64,000 nucleotides of DNA from Burkholderiales bacterium (GTDB lineage: Bacteria > Pseudomonadota > Gammaproteobacteria > Burkholderiales > Burkholderiaceae_C), in NCBI GenBank assembly GCA_016192425.1, contig JACPUE010000059.1, positions 1 to 64,000 on the forward strand, given 5' to 3'. Below the pieces are notes generated by a model. The model saw only the letters and a list, made by a program, of their open reading frames with translations. It was not told where the DNA came from and searched no databases. Every line of letters starts with the position of its first letter. Within the stretch, counting starts at the first letter, position 1. Below, piece after piece: positions 20,080-27,605 of this stretch. Made by a program: the position numbers and the translations under genes.

Positions 20080-21450
20080 ATGAGCATTCCGCCCCGCAGC
20101 CTGCATACACGCATCAGCCTTTTGCTCACCGGGCTGGCGGCCACCATGCTGATGGTGCTGGCCCTGCTGTGGGTGCATGGCGTGCGCAGCAGCATCCACG
20201 AGGAAATCTCTGCCGCCAACCGGGTCACCGTCCAGTGGCTCGTGGCCCTGGCTTCGGACATGCAATCCGCGCCCGCGGCGCAGGCCACGCAGCGCGTGCT
20301 GCCGATGGTGCAGTCCCTGGGGCGCATTCGCGCCAATGCCCTGGAGGTGCTGGCAGAAGATGGCCAGCGCCTCTATGCCTCGCCAGCGCCCACCTACAAG
20401 GCCGACCGCGTCGCGCCAGGCTGGTTTGCCGCGCTGGTGACGCCGGTGTTTGCCGTGCACCGCGTGATCGTGGGCGACCTGGAGCTGGTGGTCACGCCCG
20501 ACGCCTCGCGCGCGGTTCTCGATGCGTGGGACGACCTGCAGGTGCTGGGCCTGTGGGCCGTGGCGCTGCTGGGGGCGCTGTTTGCGCTGGTGCGCTGGGC
20601 GCTGGGCCGCACCATGCGGCCGCTCGAACAGGTGATGGCCGCACTGGACTGCACCGGCCACGGCCGTTTCGACGTTCGCCTGCCGGTCTTCCCCCTGCGC
20701 GAGCTGGGGCGCCTGTCGCTGGCCTTCAACGGCATGGCAGACCGCCTGGAGGAAGCCGTCGAGGACAACGTACGCCTGGAAAGCGAACGCGAGGTGGCAC
20801 GCCTCGTCCAGGCGCGCCTGGAAGATGAGCGGCACGCCATTGCCCGCGAACTGCACGACACCCTGGCCCAAGGCATTACCGGCGTGCGCACGCTGGCTGG
20901 CGCCATTGCCCAGCGCACCCCCGACCAGCCTGCGCTGCACCAGCCTGCGCAAAGCATCGTTGCCGTCACCGGGGAGATGCAGGACGGGGTCAAGGCCATC
21001 CTGTACCGCCTGCGCGCGGTGCTGGACCATGACCTCGCCACCGCCATCGCGCATGAACGCACACGCTGGGAGCTGCTGCACCCCCACATTGCGCTGAGCT
21101 GCCGCATGGATATTGGCACCGCGCCGCTGGCCGCAGAGCTCACCCAGACAGCCCTGCGCGTGGTGCAGGAGGGGCTGACCAACATCGTGCGGCACGCCAA
21201 GGCCACGCGGGCCGAGCTCTGGATCGAGCGCAAGGGCGGCTGGCTCAACATCCGCCTGAGCGACAACGGCTGCGGCCTGGGCAGCGCCACCAGCCATGCG
21301 GGCAGCGGGCTGGGCCTGACGGGCATGCGCGAGCGCATTGCCTTGCAGGGCGGGCAGCTCCAGCTCAACACCTCGGCCAGCGGCGGCCTGTGCGTGGTGG
21401 CACGGCTGCCGGACTGCTTCCCCCAGCCCACCCTGGAGCCTGCACCATGA
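20080..21450 (+). CDS. Sensor histidine kinase (HisKA_3 / NarX-UhpB subfamily)
   Basis: A 456-residue membrane kinase: first membrane segment about 12-35, a periplasmic sensor of about 110 residues, a second segment near 155-175, a HAMP-like linker, then the HisKA_3 box ERHAIARELHDTLAQGI (phospho-His near 258) and an ATPase domain (LRVVQEGLTNIVRHAKA, GLGLTGMRERI). ATG 20080 follows AAGGAGA. It overlaps the response regulator gene by four bases. Such kinase-LuxR pairs often control PQQ-dependent alcohol oxidation genes; here they head the pqqE cluster. The signal is unknown. Confidence 0.92.
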   Translation: MSIPPRSLHTRISLLLTGLAATMLMVLALLWVHGVRSSIHEEISAANRVTVQWLVALASDMQSAPAAQATQRVLPMVQSLGRIRANALEVLAEDGQRLYASPAPTYKADRVAPGWFAALVTPVFAVHRVIVGDLELVVTPDASRAVLDAWDDLQVLGLWAVALLGALFALVRWALGRTMRPLEQVMAALDCTGHGRFDVRLPVFPLRELGRLSLAFNGMADRLEEAVEDNVRLESEREVARLVQARLEDERHAIARELHDTLAQGITGVRTLAGAIAQRTPDQPALHQPAQSIVAVTGEMQDGVKAILYRLRAVLDHDLATAIAHERTRWELLHPHIALSCRMDIGTAPLAAELTQTALRVVQEGLTNIVRHAKATRAELWIERKGGWLNIRLSDNGCGLGSATSHAGSGLGLTGMRERIALQGGQLQLNTSASGGLCVVARLPDCFPQPTLEPAP

Positions 21451-22094
21451 ACCCCCACCTGCACGGAACCCGCATCATGCTGGCCGACGACCATGCCGTC
21501 GTGCGCCTGGGCCTGCGGCTGCTGCTGGAAGGCGCTGGCGCCACCGTGGTGGGCGAGGCAGAGTCCGGCGAAAGCGCGTCGCGCATGTACGGGCCGCTGG
21601 ACCCCGACGTGCTGGTGATGGACATCTCCATGCCCGGCATCGGCGGCCTGGGCGCGCTCGAGCGCATCCTCATCCACTCCCCCAAGGCGCGGGTGCTCAT
21701 GCTCTCGGCCCACAGCGACGACATCATGCCCACCCGCGCGCTGCGCGCGGGCGCGCGGGGCTACCTGTGCAAGCGTGCAGACCCTGAAGAGTTCTTGCGC
21801 GCCGTGTCTGCGGTAGCGGCAGACCAGCGCTACATCGACCCCGAGCTGGCCGCAGCACTGGCCCTGGCGCAGCTCTCGAAATCGGCCAACCCCGTGGAGA
21901 CGCTGTCCGAGAAGGAACTGGCGGTGTTCATGCAACTGGCCCTGGGGCGCTCCGTCCAGCAGGTGGCCGAGGACTTCCGCCTGAGCCCCAGCACCGTGGG
22001 CACGCACCTGTACCACATCAAGCAAAAGCTCAACGTCAACAACGCCGCCGAACTGGCGCTGGTGGCCTTGCGCAACGGCATGATCGACATCTGA
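21447..22094 (+). CDS. LuxR-family response regulator
   Basis: A 215-residue two-domain regulator. The receiver domain has the acidic pocket (LADDH) and phospho-acceptor in DPDVLVMDISMPG near residue 55; the C-terminal LuxR helix-turn-helix spans about 145-210 (SVQQVAEDFRLSPSTVGTHL). It overlaps the kinase stop (ATGA) and precedes the hydrolase gene by 13 bases, so the pair heads one transcript with the downstream pqqE group. Its binding site is not known. Confidence 0.93.
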   Translation: MNPHLHGTRIMLADDHAVVRLGLRLLLEGAGATVVGEAESGESASRMYGPLDPDVLVMDISMPGIGGLGALERILIHSPKARVLMLSAHSDDIMPTRALRAGARGYLCKRADPEEFLRAVSAVAADQRYIDPELAAALALAQLSKSANPVETLSEKELAVFMQLALGRSVQQVAEDFRLSPSTVGTHLYHIKQKLNVNNAAELALVALRNGMIDI

Positions 22095-22107
22095 CGCCCG
22101 CCCTGCC

Positions 22108-23073
22108 ATGCCCGCCGCCACAGATGCACCGCTGTTTGCACCCACCGAGCCCTCGCGCTGCGGGTGGCTGGCGGTGCCTGATGGGCACCGGCTTTACTTC
22201 GAGGAATGCGGCCCCCCGGACGGCATACCGGTGCTCTTTCTCCATGGCGGGCCCGGCAGCGGCTGCCAGCCCCGGCAGCGCCAGTTGTTCGACCCCTCCC
22301 GCTATCGCGCCATTTTGCTGGACCAGCGCGGCTGCGGCCGCAGCGAGCCGCTGGGCGCCCTCGCTGCCAACACCACGGCACACCTGGTGCAAGACCTGGA
22401 AGCCCTGCGCCAGCACCTGGGCCTGGCGGGCTGGTTCGTCCTGGGCGGGTCCTGGGGCAGCACGCTGGCGCTGGCCTATGCCCAGCGCCACCCGGGCGCC
22501 GTGCGGGGACTGGTGCTGCGCGGCCTGTTCCTGGGCTCCCGGCAAGAAGTCAGCGCCTATCTGGAGCACCCGCAGTTCGCCGCCGCCCGCAGCGCGCTGG
22601 AGGCCCTTGCAGGCGGCGGAAAAGAGACCGCTGCGGCCCATTGGCAGCCGACGGCTTCCAGGTCCGGCAGGCTCCTCGCGTCGCTGGCCCAAGGCATGGC
22701 GCAGGAACACCGTGCTGGCGCCATTGCCCTGGCCTGGCTCAACTACGAAGCAGCCCTGATGGGGCTGGAGCCGCTGCAGGGCGAACCCGATGCGCGCCAG
22801 CGGGCCAAGGTGCGCGTGCAGTTGCACTACCTTGCGCACGACTGCTTTCTTGCGCCAGGCGAATTGCTGCAGAAGGCCTACCGCCTGCGCGGCATTCCGG
22901 GCGTCATCGTCCAGGGGCTGCGCGACGCCGTGTGCCCCCCGCAAGCCGCAGCAGCGCTGCACAGGGCCTGGCCCCAGGCCCTCTGGTCGCCGGTAGCAGG
23001 CGGCGGCCACAGCGCACTCTCCCCCCCCATGGCCAGCGCCACGATATGGGCGCTGGAGCACCTGTGCGCCTGA
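22108..23073 (+). CDS. Prolyl aminopeptidase-like alpha/beta hydrolase
   Basis: A 321-residue alpha/beta hydrolase of the proline iminopeptidase (S33) family. The oxyanion segment HGGPGSG, nucleophile GGSWGS near residue 115, the acid in LRDAVCPP and the final GGGHSA complete a catalytic triad. The family removes N-terminal proline from peptides in the cytoplasm. It sits between the two-component genes and pqqE. PqqA processing needs a peptidase, and Pseudomonas PQQ operons carry a peptidase of the prolyl-oligopeptidase type (pqqH), so a role in peptide release is a reasonable inference. Confidence 0.82.
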   Translation: MPAATDAPLFAPTEPSRCGWLAVPDGHRLYFEECGPPDGIPVLFLHGGPGSGCQPRQRQLFDPSRYRAILLDQRGCGRSEPLGALAANTTAHLVQDLEALRQHLGLAGWFVLGGSWGSTLALAYAQRHPGAVRGLVLRGLFLGSRQEVSAYLEHPQFAAARSALEALAGGGKETAAAHWQPTASRSGRLLASLAQGMAQEHRAGAIALAWLNYEAALMGLEPLQGEPDARQRAKVRVQLHYLAHDCFLAPGELLQKAYRLRGIPGVIVQGLRDAVCPPQAAAALHRAWPQALWSPVAGGGHSALSPPMASATIWALEHLCA

Positions 23074-23182
23074 TCGGCGCGCTCGTGATTTTCATGAGGC
23101 GCGAATGCGGATTTGCTGGTAGCCGACTGCAGGCCGGGCAGGAAGAATGGGACATCTTGTCGCTGATGCCGGAAGGAGCGCT

Positions 23183-24328
23183 ATGCCAAAAGAAGAACAG
23201 GGCCTGAGCCTGGACGGCCAGGGCAAGCCCCTTTGGCTGTCCCTGGAGCTGACGTACCGCTGCCCCCTCAAGTGCAGCTGGTGCAACAACCCGCTGAACT
23301 TCGAGGACTACACCTCGCAGGAGCTGAGCACCCAGGAGTGGAAGCGCGTGCTGCGCGAAGCGCGCGATCTGGGCGCCTTGCAGCTGGGGTTCACCGGGGG
23401 CGAGCCGCTGATGCGCGACGACCTGGAGGAGCTGGTGGCCTACGCCGACAGCATCGGTTTCTACACCAACCTCATCACCTCCGGCGTGGGCCTGAGCGAG
23501 GAGCGCCTGGTGGCGCTCAAGGCGGCAGGGCTCAAGCAGATCCAGCTCTCCGTCCAGGCCACCCGCGCGGAACTGACCGACGCACTGGTCGGCGCGCGCG
23601 CCCATGCGCTCAAGATGGACGCGGCCCGCCGCATCAAGGCGCATGGCTTCCCCATGGTGCTCAACATGCCGGTGTTCAAGCAGAACATCGGGCTGATCGG
23701 CGAGATGTGCGAGTGGGCTGCGGATCTGGGCATCGAGTACATCGAGTTCGCCAACATCCAGTACTACAACTGGGCCCTGCTCAACCGGGACGAACTGCTG
23801 CCCAGCCTGGAGCAGATCCGCCAGGCCGAGGCCACGGTCAACGCATGGCGCGCCAAGCTGGGCAAGCGCATGACGCTGTATTTCGTGGTGCCCGACTACT
23901 TCGAGGGCCGCCCCAAGGCCTGCATGAACGGCTGGGGCGCCATCCACCTGACCATTGCACCCGATGGCGTGGCCATGCCCTGCCAGGAATCCAGGGTCAT
24001 TCCAGGGCTGGAGTTCGAGTCGGTGCGCGAGCGCTCGCTCTCGTGGCTGTGGCACGAGTCCCCCCTGTTCCGCAAGTACCGCGGCCTGGACTGGCTGCCC
24101 GAGCCCTGCAGCTCGTGCAGCGAAAAGGAAAAGGACTTCGGCGGCTGCCGCTGCCAGGCGTTCCTGCTCACCGGCGATGCAGGCAACACCGACCCGGCCT
24201 GCAGCCGCTCGCCCTTCCACACCCGCATCACCGACGCGGTGCAGGAGGTGGTGCGGCCCCTGCGCTTCAAGAAGCCGCTGGTCAAGCGCTCGGCCAGCGC
24301 CGTATCCACCACGTTCATGGAGGAATGA
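23183..24328 (+). CDS. pqqE: Pyrroloquinoline quinone biosynthesis radical SAM protein PqqE
   Basis: A 381-residue radical SAM enzyme that cross-links Glu and Tyr of PqqA. The cluster motif is TYRCPLKCSWC (Cys27, 31, 34). The SPASM-type auxiliary-cluster cysteines lie in PKACMNGWG, MPCQES, CSSCSEKEKDFGGCRCQAF and DPACSRSP, all as expected for PqqE. From memory of the Klebsiella protein, the match runs over the full length. ATG 23183 follows GGAAGGAG. The gene overlaps the next small frame. Its usual partners pqqB and pqqC are not adjacent. Confidence 0.93.
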   Translation: MPKEEQGLSLDGQGKPLWLSLELTYRCPLKCSWCNNPLNFEDYTSQELSTQEWKRVLREARDLGALQLGFTGGEPLMRDDLEELVAYADSIGFYTNLITSGVGLSEERLVALKAAGLKQIQLSVQATRAELTDALVGARAHALKMDAARRIKAHGFPMVLNMPVFKQNIGLIGEMCEWAADLGIEYIEFANIQYYNWALLNRDELLPSLEQIRQAEATVNAWRAKLGKRMTLYFVVPDYFEGRPKACMNGWGAIHLTIAPDGVAMPCQESRVIPGLEFESVRERSLSWLWHESPLFRKYRGLDWLPEPCSSCSEKEKDFGGCRCQAFLLTGDAGNTDPACSRSPFHTRITDAVQEVVRPLRFKKPLVKRSASAVSTTFMEE

Positions 24329-24420
24329 TGCGGCACCCCTACGACAGCGCCCTCGCCACCGTGGCGCTCGGCGTGGCACTGACCGCCGTGCTGGCTGCGC
24401 TGGTGCGCCTTCTGGCCTAG
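24325..24420 (+). CDS. Single-pass membrane peptide (31 aa)
   Basis: An ATGATG start overlaps the pqqE stop, with GGAGG at 24319-24323 placed for the second ATG (24328). The frame reads MMRHPYDSALATVALGVALT and then a further hydrophobic stretch to LVRLLA, i.e. a short polar head and one membrane helix of about 20 residues. It is followed 21 bases later by a polytopic membrane protein. Tiny helices of this kind often act as accessory subunits of membrane enzymes. No known family was recognised. Confidence 0.6.
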   Translation: MMRHPYDSALATVALGVALTAVLAALVRLLA

Positions 24421-24441
24421 GACAACGCAAGGAACCACACC

Positions 24442-24948
24442 ATGGACATGGCAATGCTGGACCTGCTGGCGCGCTGGCTGCATTTTCTGGCGGGCGTCAT
24501 CTGGGTCGGCCACAACTACGCCAGTGTGGTGAACCGCCCCCAATGGCGCCCCTTGGCTGCCAGCGACCTGAGCGACCCGGACAGCCCCAAGCTCAAGGAG
24601 GTCATCAACCGCGAGCACGGCACCTTCCGCTGGGCGTCCGTGGTGACCTGGTGCGCCGGGATCTTCATGCTCTGGCACCGGGGCTGGCTCCCTGGCGCCT
24701 TGCAGCTGCAGGGCAGCCTCGCTCCGATCGGCGTGGGCGTCTACATCGGCACGGTGATGATGCTCAACGTCTGGTTCGTCCTCTGGCCCCACCAGAAGAA
24801 GGTGCTGGGCCTGGTTCCCGCACCCGTGCACGAGCGCCTGCGCTGCTCGCGCATCACCCACCTTTCGTCGCGCACCAACACCATGCTGTCGATCCCGCTG
24901 CTGTTCTTCATGGCAGCGGGCAGCCATGGCGGATTCCTGGTGCGATGA
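24442..24948 (+). CDS. PuuD-like membrane protein (DUF989/urate hydroxylase membrane domain)
   Basis: A 168-residue protein with about four membrane helices. The opening WLHFLAGVIWVGHNYASVV and the closing RTNTMLSIPLLFFM resemble the membrane domain of PuuD-type urate hydroxylases; the C-terminal cytochrome c domain of full-length PuuD is absent. Several histidines (WLHF, VGHN, ITHL) could bind heme. AAGGA precedes ATG 24442. It lies nine bases before the aminotransferase gene, inside the pqqE string. A redox or electron-transfer role for that pathway is inference; urate breakdown has no other support here. Confidence 0.65.
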   Translation: MDMAMLDLLARWLHFLAGVIWVGHNYASVVNRPQWRPLAASDLSDPDSPKLKEVINREHGTFRWASVVTWCAGIFMLWHRGWLPGALQLQGSLAPIGVGVYIGTVMMLNVWFVLWPHQKKVLGLVPAPVHERLRCSRITHLSSRTNTMLSIPLLFFMAAGSHGGFLVR

Positions 24949-24957
24949 GATAGCGGC

Positions 24958-26037
24958 ATGTCCTACAGCTTTGCCGCAGGCCCGGCACGACTGCCTGATG
25001 CCGTGCTGGCCCAGGCCCGGGAGACGCTGTTCAGCCGTGGGGCAGACGGCGCGGCGCCGGTGGAGCGGCCATTTTCTGCACCCCAGTTTCGCGCCGTGCT
25101 GGCCCAGGCCCAGAGCCGCCTGCGCGCGCTGCTGTGCCTGCCAGAGGGGTACCGCATCCTGTTTCTGGCCGGTGGGGCCATGCACCAGTTCGCCATGGTG
25201 CCCGCCAACCTGGCCACCCCAGGGGGCACGGTGGCCTATGCCGATTCGGGCTACTGGGCGCAGCGCGCCATGGCCGAGGCGGCCCGGCAGTGCCGGGTCT
25301 CCGTGGTGGCACGGCATGGCGGCACGCAGGCGCTGGCCGCCCCGGATTTGCAGGACTGGCACCTGCCGCCCGATTGCGCCTACTGCCACATCACCCCCAA
25401 CGAAACCGCCGAGGGCATCGCCTATCCCGGCCTGCCAGCGGTGGGCGATGTGCCGCTGGTGGCCGACTGCACGTCCTGCCTGCTCACAGCGCCCCTGCCC
25501 ATCACGCGCTTCGGGCTGGTCTATGCCGGGGCGCAGAAGAACCTTGGCATTGCGGGCCTGACCGTGGTGATTATTCAGGAGGCGCTGCTGGCGCGCAGCC
25601 CGGCCAGCCTGGCCTCGGTCGCCTCGTACCGCCTGCAGGCGCAAGCGGACAGCTGCGTCAACACGCCGCCCGTGGCGGCCCTGCTGGTGACGGCCATGGT
25701 GCTGGACTGGATCAGCGCGCAAGGCGGCCTGCCCGCCATGGCCGATGCCAACCAGCGCAAGGCGGCCACGCTGTACCAGGCCATAGACGCCAGCCAAGGC
25801 TTTTACCGCGCACCGGTGGCGCCGGGACACCGCTCGCCGGTCAACGTGCGGTTTGGCTGCGCCAACACGGCGCTGGACACGGTGTTTGCCGCAGAGGCCG
25901 AAGACGCCGGGCTGCACCACCTGCGCGGCCACCCGCGCATTGGCGGCATGCGCGCCAGCCTGTACAACGCGATGCCGCAGGCCGGGGTCGATGCGCTGGT
26001 CGGCTTCATGGCGCACTTTCAACGGCGCTACGGATGA
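24958..26037 (+). CDS. Phosphoserine aminotransferase-like protein (SerC paralogue)
   Basis: A 359-residue class V PLP aminotransferase of the SerC type. It has the SerC opening FAAGPARLPDAVL, the HITPNETAEGIAY segment and the PLP lysine in YAGAQKNLGIAGLTVVII, and ends with HPRIGGMRASLYNAMP. The catalytic lysine and phosphate-loop features are kept. Its position inside a pqq-type operon, with overlapping stop and start to the next gene, argues for a role other than serine synthesis; an unlinked serC would be expected elsewhere in the genome. Confidence 0.82.
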   Translation: MSYSFAAGPARLPDAVLAQARETLFSRGADGAAPVERPFSAPQFRAVLAQAQSRLRALLCLPEGYRILFLAGGAMHQFAMVPANLATPGGTVAYADSGYWAQRAMAEAARQCRVSVVARHGGTQALAAPDLQDWHLPPDCAYCHITPNETAEGIAYPGLPAVGDVPLVADCTSCLLTAPLPITRFGLVYAGAQKNLGIAGLTVVIIQEALLARSPASLASVASYRLQAQADSCVNTPPVAALLVTAMVLDWISAQGGLPAMADANQRKAATLYQAIDASQGFYRAPVAPGHRSPVNVRFGCANTALDTVFAAEAEDAGLHHLRGHPRIGGMRASLYNAMPQAGVDALVGFMAHFQRRYG

Positions 26038-26822
26038 GAGCCCCCACGCCGCAGGCCGCCGGGCACGCCACCTGGCTCCAGCGCCCCGGCCTTGCGGGCG
26101 GCATCGACCAGGACGGGAGCCGCGCCGCCGAGCTGCTCACCTGCGGGTTTGGCAGCGTGGAGTTTGGCAGCGTGACGGCCCAGCCGCTGCCGGGGCAGAA
26201 CGCCGGTGTGGCGGCGCTGGTGCAGGCGCTGGCAGCAGCCCTGGCGGCGGTGCCGCAGGGCACGGCGCTGCGCGCGCGGCCCTGCGCCGTGGGCATTGGC
26301 CTGGCCGTCCCCCCCACCGTGGCCCTGGCGCAGGTAGCCGTGCAGTGGATGGCGGGCTATGAGGCAGCGGCCAAGGTGGCCGACTACGCCAGCCTGAACC
26401 TCAGCGCCCGCGCACACCAGCGCTTGCTGGAGCCCGCCGGGCTGGCCGTTCTGGGTGCGGCCTTTTCTGCCGTGGCCTGGCTGCGCCAGCAACAAGGCCA
26501 CAGCGTGCGCCTGGCGGTCAAGCTGCCTGGCAGCCATCCGGCAGCACCCATGGTGGCGGCGCTGGCCATGGCAGCGGGCTTCGACCAGTTGACCGTGGTG
26601 CTGCCAGGCGGCAGCGAACGCTGGGCCTGCCTGTCTGCGCTGCGCCAGCAGATCGGGCCGACGCCCGACCTCGTGGCCGTGGGCGGCATCCGCTGCAGCG
26701 CCGATGTGGCCCAGGCGCTGGCCTGCGGCGCCAGCGGTGTGCAGGTGCACGGCCTGTTTGCCGCGTACGGAGCCCAGTGCCTGCAGCGGCTGGCCCTGCC
26801 CGCCAGCAACGCCAGCTCATGA
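26034..26822 (+). CDS. Diverged dihydroorotate dehydrogenase-like flavoprotein (PyrD-like)
   Basis: A 262-residue protein whose segments AGGIDQDGSRAAELLTCGFG, SVEFGSVTAQPLPG, AVKLPGSHPAAPMVAALAMA and AVGGIRCSADVAQALACG follow the order of the FMN-binding TIM barrel of class 2 PyrD. It is about 70 residues shorter than PyrD. The catalytic loop NxSSPNTPG is replaced by NLSARAHQRL and the orotate-binding MGFNN segment is not kept, so it is unlikely to oxidise dihydroorotate. It overlaps the aminotransferase gene by four bases and ends the operon before the palindromic element. Confidence 0.72.
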   Translation: MRAPTPQAAGHATWLQRPGLAGGIDQDGSRAAELLTCGFGSVEFGSVTAQPLPGQNAGVAALVQALAAALAAVPQGTALRARPCAVGIGLAVPPTVALAQVAVQWMAGYEAAAKVADYASLNLSARAHQRLLEPAGLAVLGAAFSAVAWLRQQQGHSVRLAVKLPGSHPAAPMVAALAMAAGFDQLTVVLPGGSERWACLSALRQQIGPTPDLVAVGGIRCSADVAQALACGASGVQVHGLFAAYGAQCLQRLALPASNASS

Positions 26823-27199
26823 TTTTCTGGAGCCCCAATCCCACAAAACCTGGACGACCGCGGCCACCGGCCCCGGAACAATGTCAGTGCAGTGTTTCGC
26901 TCTAATTAGCACTTTCAGAGCCCCGAAAAAGCTGCCCGGCTAGGCGCAGCGCGCAGGCAATGGCGGCGCCCTTGCCAAGCGCTGCAACGACGCTGGGCGG
27001 CTTTTTCGGGGCTCCCTTCGGGCCAGTGGCCAAGGGGCCATCTGCGTTGTTGCAGTGGCTTGCCGTAACCCGTTATGCCTGCGCCCCTGCGCCTAGCAGT
27101 TGGCCCCTTGGCCACTGGCTGAAAGTGCTAATTAGAGCGAAACACTGCACTAGGAGCTGCGCAGTGCAGCTTCGCAACACCTCACAAGGAGACACACCC
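26823..27199. other. Long noncoding region between the pqqE operon and pqqA
   Basis: These 377 bases contain no supported gene. Positions 26886-27151 are a nested inverted-repeat element (separate entry). The first 63 bases carry no obvious terminator. The last 48 bases carry the pqqA ribosome site (AAGGAGA, 27186-27192) but no convincing promoter, so the pqqA promoter should lie within or before the element. An open frame covering 26960-27274 is noncoding upstream of the pqqA ATG. Confidence 0.7.
26886..27151. repeat. 266-bp element with 33-bp perfect terminal inverted repeats
   Basis: The outer arms (26886-26918 and 27119-27151) are perfect inverted repeats of 33 bp, each containing CTAATTAG. 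Inside are a 20-bp arm pair with one mismatch (26918-26937 with 26995-27014) and a perfect 19-bp pair (27022-27040 with 27101-27119). A longer imperfect pairing (about 26939-26994 with 27043-27097) crosses these two, so two alternative folds are possible. No target-site duplication and no transposase are seen. It could be a miniature mobile element or a switchable leader of pqqA. Confidence 0.8.
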
Positions 27200-27274
27200 A
27201 TGACCTGGCAAACCCCCGCTTTCTGCGAAATCCGCCTCGGCTTTGAAGTGACCGCCTACGTTTACGTGCGCTAA
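27200..27274 (+). CDS. pqqA: PqqA precursor peptide
   Basis: A 24-codon gene, MTWQTPAFCEIRLG followed by FEVTAYVYVR. Glu16 and Tyr20 sit in the ExxxY spacing that PqqE cross-links, and the RLGFEVT context is the PqqA consensus. AAGGAGA at 27186-27192 stands seven bases before ATG 27200. It is 52 bases upstream of pqqD and directly downstream of the palindromic element, separate from pqqE. Cys9 is uncommon in the PqqA sequences I remember. Confidence 0.92.
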   Translation: MTWQTPAFCEIRLGFEVTAYVYVR

Positions 27275-27326
27275 GCCCTTGCGCCGCAGCGGCTTGGGCT
27301 GCTGCGCGCGGGCCGCCCCCACTCCC

Positions 27327-27605
27327 ATGGACGCCACCACCACCGCCACCTGCCCGCAGCTGCATCCGCGCTTCATCATGCGCTGGGAGGAGAGCCAGGA
27401 CGCGCATGTCATCCTCTACCCCGAAGGGCTGATCAAGCTCAACCCATCGGCGGCAGAAATCCTCAAGCGCTGCGACGGCACACGCACCGACAGCGACATC
27501 GTTGACGACCTGGCCCTGGCCTACCCCGACCAGCGTGAAGCCATCGCCCAAGGCACCGCCAGCTTCCTCGCCGTGGCGCGGGACAAGGGCTGGATTCTGG
27601 GCTGA
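27327..27605 (+). CDS. pqqD: PQQ biosynthesis peptide chaperone PqqD
   Basis: A 92-residue PqqD-type winged-helix chaperone (RRE fold) that binds PqqA and presents it to PqqE. The sequence HPRFIMRWEESQDAHVILYP and LNPSAAEILKRCDGTRTDSD match the PqqD family closely, including the core where the leader peptide docks. ATG 27327 is at the family start. It is last in the pqqA transcript and is followed at once by repeat copy E. Confidence 0.92.
   Translation: MDATTTATCPQLHPRFIMRWEESQDAHVILYPEGLIKLNPSAAEILKRCDGTRTDSDIVDDLALAYPDQREAIAQGTASFLAVARDKGWILG

Follow-up and report, generated by a model that had tools for sequence, protein, structure and literature searches.

How could pyrroloquinoline quinone (PQQ) be made from a locus that holds pqqA, pqqD and pqqE together with three genes foreign to the classical pathway? 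The question is raised by positions 20080 to 27605 of the DNA analysed here, a stretch of 64,000 nucleotides from a Burkholderiales bacterium that we call the window, where the pqq genes stand together with genes for a PuuD-like membrane protein, a SerC-like aminotransferase and a PyrD-like flavoprotein (hereafter, the trio). A preliminary description of this locus left two options: either pqqB and pqqC are unlinked and the other genes are extra, or the cross-linked PqqA peptide is turned into a different redox cofactor. We propose instead, with a probability of roughly 0.7, that the locus carries an oxygen-independent finishing set able to take the place of PqqB and PqqC, which require O2, and that its product is ordinary PQQ. 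Oxygen-independent completion of PQQ is a better reading than either of the earlier options, and it has already been suggested in print (Li et al. 2025, PMC12423496). The genes in question are the following:

23183-24328, + strand: PqqE, radical S-adenosylmethionine (SAM)/SPASM enzyme of the trio-associated clade (TIGR02109, tree)
24325-24420, + strand: 31-residue membrane peptide (open reading frame, ORF)
24442-24948, + strand: PuuD-like (short DUF989/Urate_ox_N) four-helix membrane protein (partial PF06181 match)
24958-26037, + strand: SerC-like pyridoxal phosphate (PLP) aminotransferase, PLP lysine kept, phosphate-binding residues lost (profile, alignment)
26034-26822, + strand: PyrD-like flavoprotein fold without the quinone-tunnel domain, catalytic serine lost, flavin mononucleotide (FMN)-site residues kept (profile, alignment, model)
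27200-27274, + strand: PqqA precursor peptide, 24 residues, E16/Y20, clade ending RLGFEVTAYVYVR (ORF)
27327-27605, + strand: PqqD peptide chaperone (PF05402, TIGR03859)

All six genes of the pqqADE-puuD-serC-pyrD cluster are present together at this locus, in the order E-peptide-PuuD-SerC-PyrD-A-D, after a two-component system and a hydrolase on the same strand. The preliminary description had recognised a complete PqqE, a PqqA with Glu16 and Tyr20, PqqD, the PuuD-like protein and the small membrane peptide, and each of these calls holds: PqqE scores 474 bits against a cut-off of 381, PqqD scores 86.8 bits on TIGR03859 against a cut-off of 46, and the PqqA residues have the E-x3-Y spacing. Its statement that overlaps or gaps of 21 bases or less run through the whole string is accurate from pqqE to the PyrD-like gene; pqqA lies 377 bp further on, a distance taken up mostly by a 266-bp element, and 52 bp separate pqqA from pqqD. 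As it had also stated, there is no pqqB or pqqC at the locus.

The window belongs to contig C62; the genome measures 3.67 Mb, with 99.99% completeness and 0.04% contamination. The PqqE encoded here shares 97% identity with that of the genome's nearest named relative, an Alicycliphilus sp. metagenome-assembled genome (MAG; L011). Elsewhere in the host genome pqqB (C23:160864-161772) and pqqC (C23:161840-162508) are intact and adjacent, scoring 397 and 313 bits, both above the curated cut-offs; the gene that follows them on the opposite strand looks, by eye, like ssb. Over cut-off there are one pqqB, one pqqC, one pqqD and one pqqE, the latter two in the window, as well as two PQQ-dependent alcohol dehydrogenases (773 and 717 bits). 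No classical pqqABCDE set besides the window cluster is found in the genome, where a second pqqA was not searched for. The host genome holds a full PQQ gene set, with the window locus supplying the sole pqqD and pqqE. Since the only pqqD and pqqE are here, and pqqBC are intact elsewhere, the window locus must feed ordinary PQQ synthesis.

Are the trio genes, then, extra? We consider the 80 PqqE loci closest to our query, that is, the best 80 of at least 583 confirmed loci ranked by similarity, a set that gives no measure of prevalence. A PuuD-like gene begins 4-290 bases past the end of pqqE in 70 of these 80. Among the 70 trio loci, a SerC-like gene is present in 69 and a PyrD-like gene in 67, and in the three lacking the latter (L047, L052, L061) little or no sequence remains beyond the SerC-like gene. 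The ten loci without the trio are L035, L081-L087, L089 and L090. According to record titles, carriers are found among the alpha- (Hyphomicrobiales), beta- and gammaproteobacteria. In an even draw of 399 genomes of the order Burkholderiales (the order sample) PqqE occurs in 66, and a trio-type PuuD-like gene, defined as one scoring above 275 bits where the next lower score is 158, occurs in 6 and adjoins PqqE in all 6. Matches of 112-158 bits, which are left out of the carrier count, belong to a second DUF989-like family of similar length found in 100 of the 399 genomes (e.g. L100-L123).

A tree built on 123 PqqE rows groups every one of the 73 trio rows, and L035 with them, into one clade (Shimodaira-Hasegawa-like approximate likelihood ratio test 95), and the trio label changes 2 times on the tree, versus 38.8 in shuffles; four canonical rows of this tree (L143, L159, L160, L164) have long branches that meet. 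The PqqA peptides of trio loci end alike, in RLGFEVTAYVY[VT]R or a slight variant of it. Moreover, 2 of 72,556 plasmid records bear the cluster as a unit, in the order pqqA-D-E-puuD-serC-pyrD: L130 (13340-18601), a 46-kb mobilizable Acidibrevibacterium plasmid on which an M48 peptidase gene comes next, as one also does after the trio in L066, and L131 (12143-17341), a Methylovirgula plasmid with a gene for a Crp/Fnr-family regulator upstream of pqqA. Because the trio genes travel with this PqqE clade, they are not extra. Thus, of the first option in the preliminary description, the unlinked pqqBC (C23:160864-162508) stand and the superfluous neighbours do not. That description had advised searching the genome for pqqBC and PQQ-dependent dehydrogenases, which turned up the genes given above, and examining whether the trio co-occurs with pqqE, which it does strongly; of the two outcomes that it named as speaking against its proposal, pqqBC elsewhere is what we find, and a lack of co-occurrence is not.

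We next ask whether the aminotransferase and the flavoprotein retain the substrates of their namesakes. Compared with E. coli SerC, all 70 SerC-like proteins keep the PLP lysine (K198), D174, T153, W102 and H328, and 69 keep R335. H41 is replaced by F in 69 of the 70 (with one gap), no sequence retains R42 or R77, and R329 remains in 6, the window protein not among them; we take these four residues to have phosphate-binding roles. Since the phosphate-binding residues are lost, the SerC-like proteins are probably not phosphoserine aminotransferases. Similarly, all 58 PyrD-like proteins compared with E. coli PyrD keep D65, N172, K217 and G297, while S175 is kept in 4 (not in the window) and N111, F115, S267 and G268 fall in gaps in all 58. 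Ahead of E. coli residue 41, where the quinone-tunnel helices lie, at most 10 residues align in any row; S175 is the catalytic base. An AlphaFold2 model of the PyrD-like protein (mean predicted local distance difference test, pLDDT, 93.5) has dihydroorotate dehydrogenases as its nearest structures (template modelling score 0.76, E 4e-15). As key substrate residues are lost in both enzymes, both probably have new substrates. The names SerC-like and PyrD-like used in the preliminary description are therefore sound for the folds and fail for the substrate residues. Given the linkage and the active-site losses, we reject the identification of these genes as housekeeping serC and pyrD. The second serC match of the host genome (C6:35677-36147) spans only model residues 205-356, which may reflect a contig edge, a frameshift or a loss.

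The PuuD-like protein of the window has 168 residues and four long helices (model pLDDT 89.8), with only a partial match to PF06181. H14, H24, H59, H162 and several arginines are invariant in 39 sequences, a pattern that would go well with either a heme or a polycarboxylate substrate. A sequence search of the PDB with the PuuD-like profile gives 0 matches, and Foldseek gives none at E ≤ 0.001. Between pqqE and the PuuD-like gene, a reading by eye finds a short hydrophobic ORF in 56 of the 70 trio loci; L061, L063 and L064 leave no space for one.

Further evidence comes from the upstream regions and the genomic company of the cluster. We scanned the 300 bases upstream of pqqA for the site TTGAYNNNNRTCAA, which we take to be of the FNR/ANR type, allowing at most 1 mismatch. 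Of 59 trio loci, 31 have a box, an exact one in 22 cases, where shuffled sequence leads us to expect 1.6. Among canonical pqqA genes it is found in 0 of 7, and in 1 of 30 canonical copies from carrier genomes (36 regions were fetched and 6 without pqqA dropped), none exact, for a total of 1 in 37. The contrast between trio and canonical loci has a Fisher p of 9e-8, in rows that are not independent of kinship; the lists for our Fisher tests were compiled by hand from the copy-number and box results. By genome type, the box is present in 22 of 37 loci from genomes with two or more copies and in 0 of 9 single-copy loci (G035 included). Upstream of pqqE the box is at chance level, in 1 of 69 trio loci versus 1.3 expected, with none in the window.

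UbiV is a marker of oxygen-independent ubiquinone synthesis. It is present in the host genome, and in 35 of 38 betaproteobacterial carriers compared with 10 of 42 PqqE-positive genomes that lack the trio (p = 2e-10). UbiV was defined by model NF011991, and the same proteins also match the UbiV model NF047965. The 38 carriers were judged betaproteobacterial by titles or tree position, alpha- and gammaproteobacterial carriers being left out along with G088 and G158, which have the same coordinates as G025 and G004; the 42 controls were taken, one or two per genus, from the 60 PqqE-positive non-carriers of the order sample. A UbiV gene lies in the fetched flanks of 11 of the 70 trio loci, and also near the cluster in G114. 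Curated models find UbiU and UbiV in L043 and L063, and UbiV and UbiT in L049.

What might the trio do? By established family chemistry, PqqA, PqqD and PqqE make a PqqA intermediate in which Glu and Tyr are cross-linked, and this would be the starting point here as well. A peptidase, perhaps the prolyl-aminopeptidase-like hydrolase, would then release the cross-linked Glu-Tyr. Oxidation or hydroxylation of the ring would fall to the PuuD-like membrane protein, acting as PuuD urate oxidase does, with water as the oxygen source and electrons passing to the respiratory chain; the PyrD-like flavoprotein would dehydrogenate the nitrogen heterocycle, and the SerC-like PLP enzyme would act on an amino-acid moiety of the intermediate. 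Both the replacement of PqqB and PqqC by the trio without oxygen and the step assigned to each enzyme are predictions. In most examined carriers the cluster comes in addition to a canonical pqq set and often has an FNR-type box; in the host genome the sole pqqD and pqqE would serve the unlinked pqqBC when oxygen is present and the trio when it is absent. We lean, somewhat less firmly than for oxygen-independent finishing as such, towards a complete route of this kind, in which the DUF989 protein hydroxylates with water, the PyrD- and SerC-like enzymes finish the rings, and sole-copy lineages switch endings from a shared pqqADE.

The distribution of pqq genes among carriers bears directly on these predictions. 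In a set of 51 carrier genomes (the host and 50 chosen from the loci, with PqqE counted at E ≤ 1e-90), a single PqqE is present in 14, and two or three in the remaining 37. Twelve of the 14, the host and 11 others, have pqqC and no other PqqE that we could find; since it is the sole PqqE found beside pqqC in these 12 carriers, the trio-clade PqqE must serve PqqBC there. In two draft genomes, G013 and G035, we find neither pqqB nor pqqC, although each has a single PqqE, the trio, and PQQ dehydrogenases on the same contig within ~12 kb; G035 also has pqqA and pqqD beside pqqE. The converse case is L035, where a trio-clade PqqE accompanies pqqBCAD and no trio is present within its 21 kb. In another genome, G034 (L132, L133), canonical pqq genes are fragmented, by decay or misassembly: a pqqC minus its N-terminal part lies beside pqqD, pqqA and a pqqE minus its C-terminal part lie ~330 kb off, and pqqB was not found.

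Several observations count against an oxygen-independent finishing role. The gene pqqC is present in 49 of the 51 carriers, and pqqB in 51 of 54 (the 51 with G114, G313 and G378); because most carriers keep both, replacement of PqqB/PqqC is not the rule. G013, G035 and G034 are MAGs by title, the completeness of the genomes without pqqBC is unstated, and no pqqA or pqqD is found in the 19-kb locus of G013. One single-PqqE carrier, G021, has no TIGR03075 dehydrogenase. There is no FNR-type box upstream of pqqA in the window, in G035, or in 28 of the 59 trio loci. Finally, kinship confounds the UbiV contrast in part: within the four families of the order sample that hold both kinds, the figures are 3 of 4 carriers versus 3 of 12 controls.

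The near-universal retention of pqqC and pqqB is what one would expect if the trio merely assisted ordinary PQQ synthesis at low oxygen, through electron supply, repair of an intermediate or transport, rather than replacing PqqB and PqqC. We regard this as rather unlikely, in view of the two carriers that have PQQ dehydrogenases without detectable pqqB or pqqC, and of the two plasmids, which bear pqqADE and the trio with no pqqBC in their 30-kb stretches (the host chromosomes were not searched). The second option of the preliminary description, that the trio turns cross-linked PqqA into a different PQQ-related cofactor, could draw on the separate clade of these PqqA and PqqE proteins, on the altered active sites of the aminotransferase and the flavoprotein, and on the 37 carriers with two or three PqqE, in which the trio copy is unneeded for aerobic PQQ. 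Yet a trio-clade PqqE is the sole PqqE in the host and 11 other pqqC-bearing carriers, so that the same set feeds PqqBC; the host has PQQ-dependent alcohol dehydrogenases, and PQQ-type dehydrogenases lie near the cluster in G013 and G035. We thus find this option unsupported, and give it little credence. As for mere chance neighbours, such as a spare serC and pyrD, the SerC family score is indeed high; but with the trio linked to pqqE in 70 of the 80 closest loci and also on the two plasmids, with the substrate residues lost, and with 18 of 20 carriers having a further serC match (a partial one in the host), such an explanation is scarcely credible.

The features that surround or interrupt the pathway genes are these:

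20080-21450, + strand: sensor histidine kinase with HAMP, HisKA_3 and HATPase_c domains (Pfam/NCBIfam)
21447-22094, + strand: LuxR-family response regulator (profile matches)
22108-23073, + strand: prolyl-aminopeptidase-like alpha/beta hydrolase, candidate PqqA-processing peptidase (TIGR01249)
26886-27151, no strand: insertion of 266 bp resembling a miniature inverted-repeat transposable element, outside the pathway (perfect 33-bp inverted ends)

Homologs of the histidine kinase (at least 48% identity) occur in 18 of the 80 closest PqqE loci. The hydrolase scores 249.7 bits on TIGR01249, just below the cut-off of 259.75 for a prolyl aminopeptidase. Homologs of it (37-40% identical) are also found close to canonical pqq operons, on the opposite strand, in L082, L084, L086, L087 and L089, which hints at a general role for such genes in PqqA processing. 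The 266-bp element also contains nested inverted repeats; it is absent at the same place in the nearest relative, L011, and has one weak match only among plasmid records. The whole 21-kb pqq region (L022/L023, 1-21173) is 99.3% identical in DNA between Dechloromonas agitata is5 and Acidovorax sp. 210-6, which suggests either that the region moved recently from one family to another or that an assembly is mixed.

PQQ synthesis has been stated to need O2, a requirement from which it has been argued that under strictly anoxic conditions PQQ-dependent methanol dehydrogenases have limited value (PMC11102522). If the trio does finish PQQ without O2, that limit on PQQ-dependent alcohol-oxidising enzymes would be lifted, which would help to explain alcohol oxidation by denitrifiers and would give the short DUF989 proteins a function. 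The sole-copy hosts and the trio-only genomes render the question directly testable by genetics.

It is useful, lastly, to compare the locus with known systems. The closest is the pqqAED-puuD-serC-pyrD cluster described by Li et al. (2025) in Hyphomicrobium denitrificans and other denitrifiers, where it is a second copy beside pqqABCDE; in H. denitrificans transcript levels of both the cluster and ubiXDTUV fall in the same two regulator mutants, and anaerobic PQQ synthesis by the cluster is offered as something 'tempting to speculate' (PMC12423496). The six genes and the proposed role are the same. The window differs from the cluster as described there in holding the only pqqD and pqqE of its genome, with pqqBC unlinked, in its own gene order, in the two-component system and hydrolase upstream, and in having no FNR-type box. 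Relative to the passages of that paper on the cluster, the active-site losses, the FNR boxes, the UbiV statistics, the genomes with the trio and without pqqBC, and the sole-copy configuration are new; our literature search recognised no other paper as treating pqqE, serC and pyrD together. With the canonical pqqABCDE operon the locus shares the PqqA, PqqD and PqqE families, whereas its pqqB and pqqC lie outside, its PqqE belongs to another clade, and its PqqA has another ending. Doniselli et al. (2015) treat the function of PuuD urate oxidase, and describe short four-helix DUF989 proteins, corresponding to helices I, II, V and VI, that have a completely different gene context (PMC4562309). The window protein matches part of the DUF989 profile and has long helices like these short forms, with half the helices of PuuD urate oxidase (an 8-helix DUF989 domain and a C-terminal cytochrome c) and no cytochrome c domain. 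The UbiT/UbiU/UbiV pathway, finally, follows the same logic, an O2-independent alternative to O2-dependent quinone steps, in the same organisms and sometimes in the same neighbourhood, with proteins unrelated to those of the trio.

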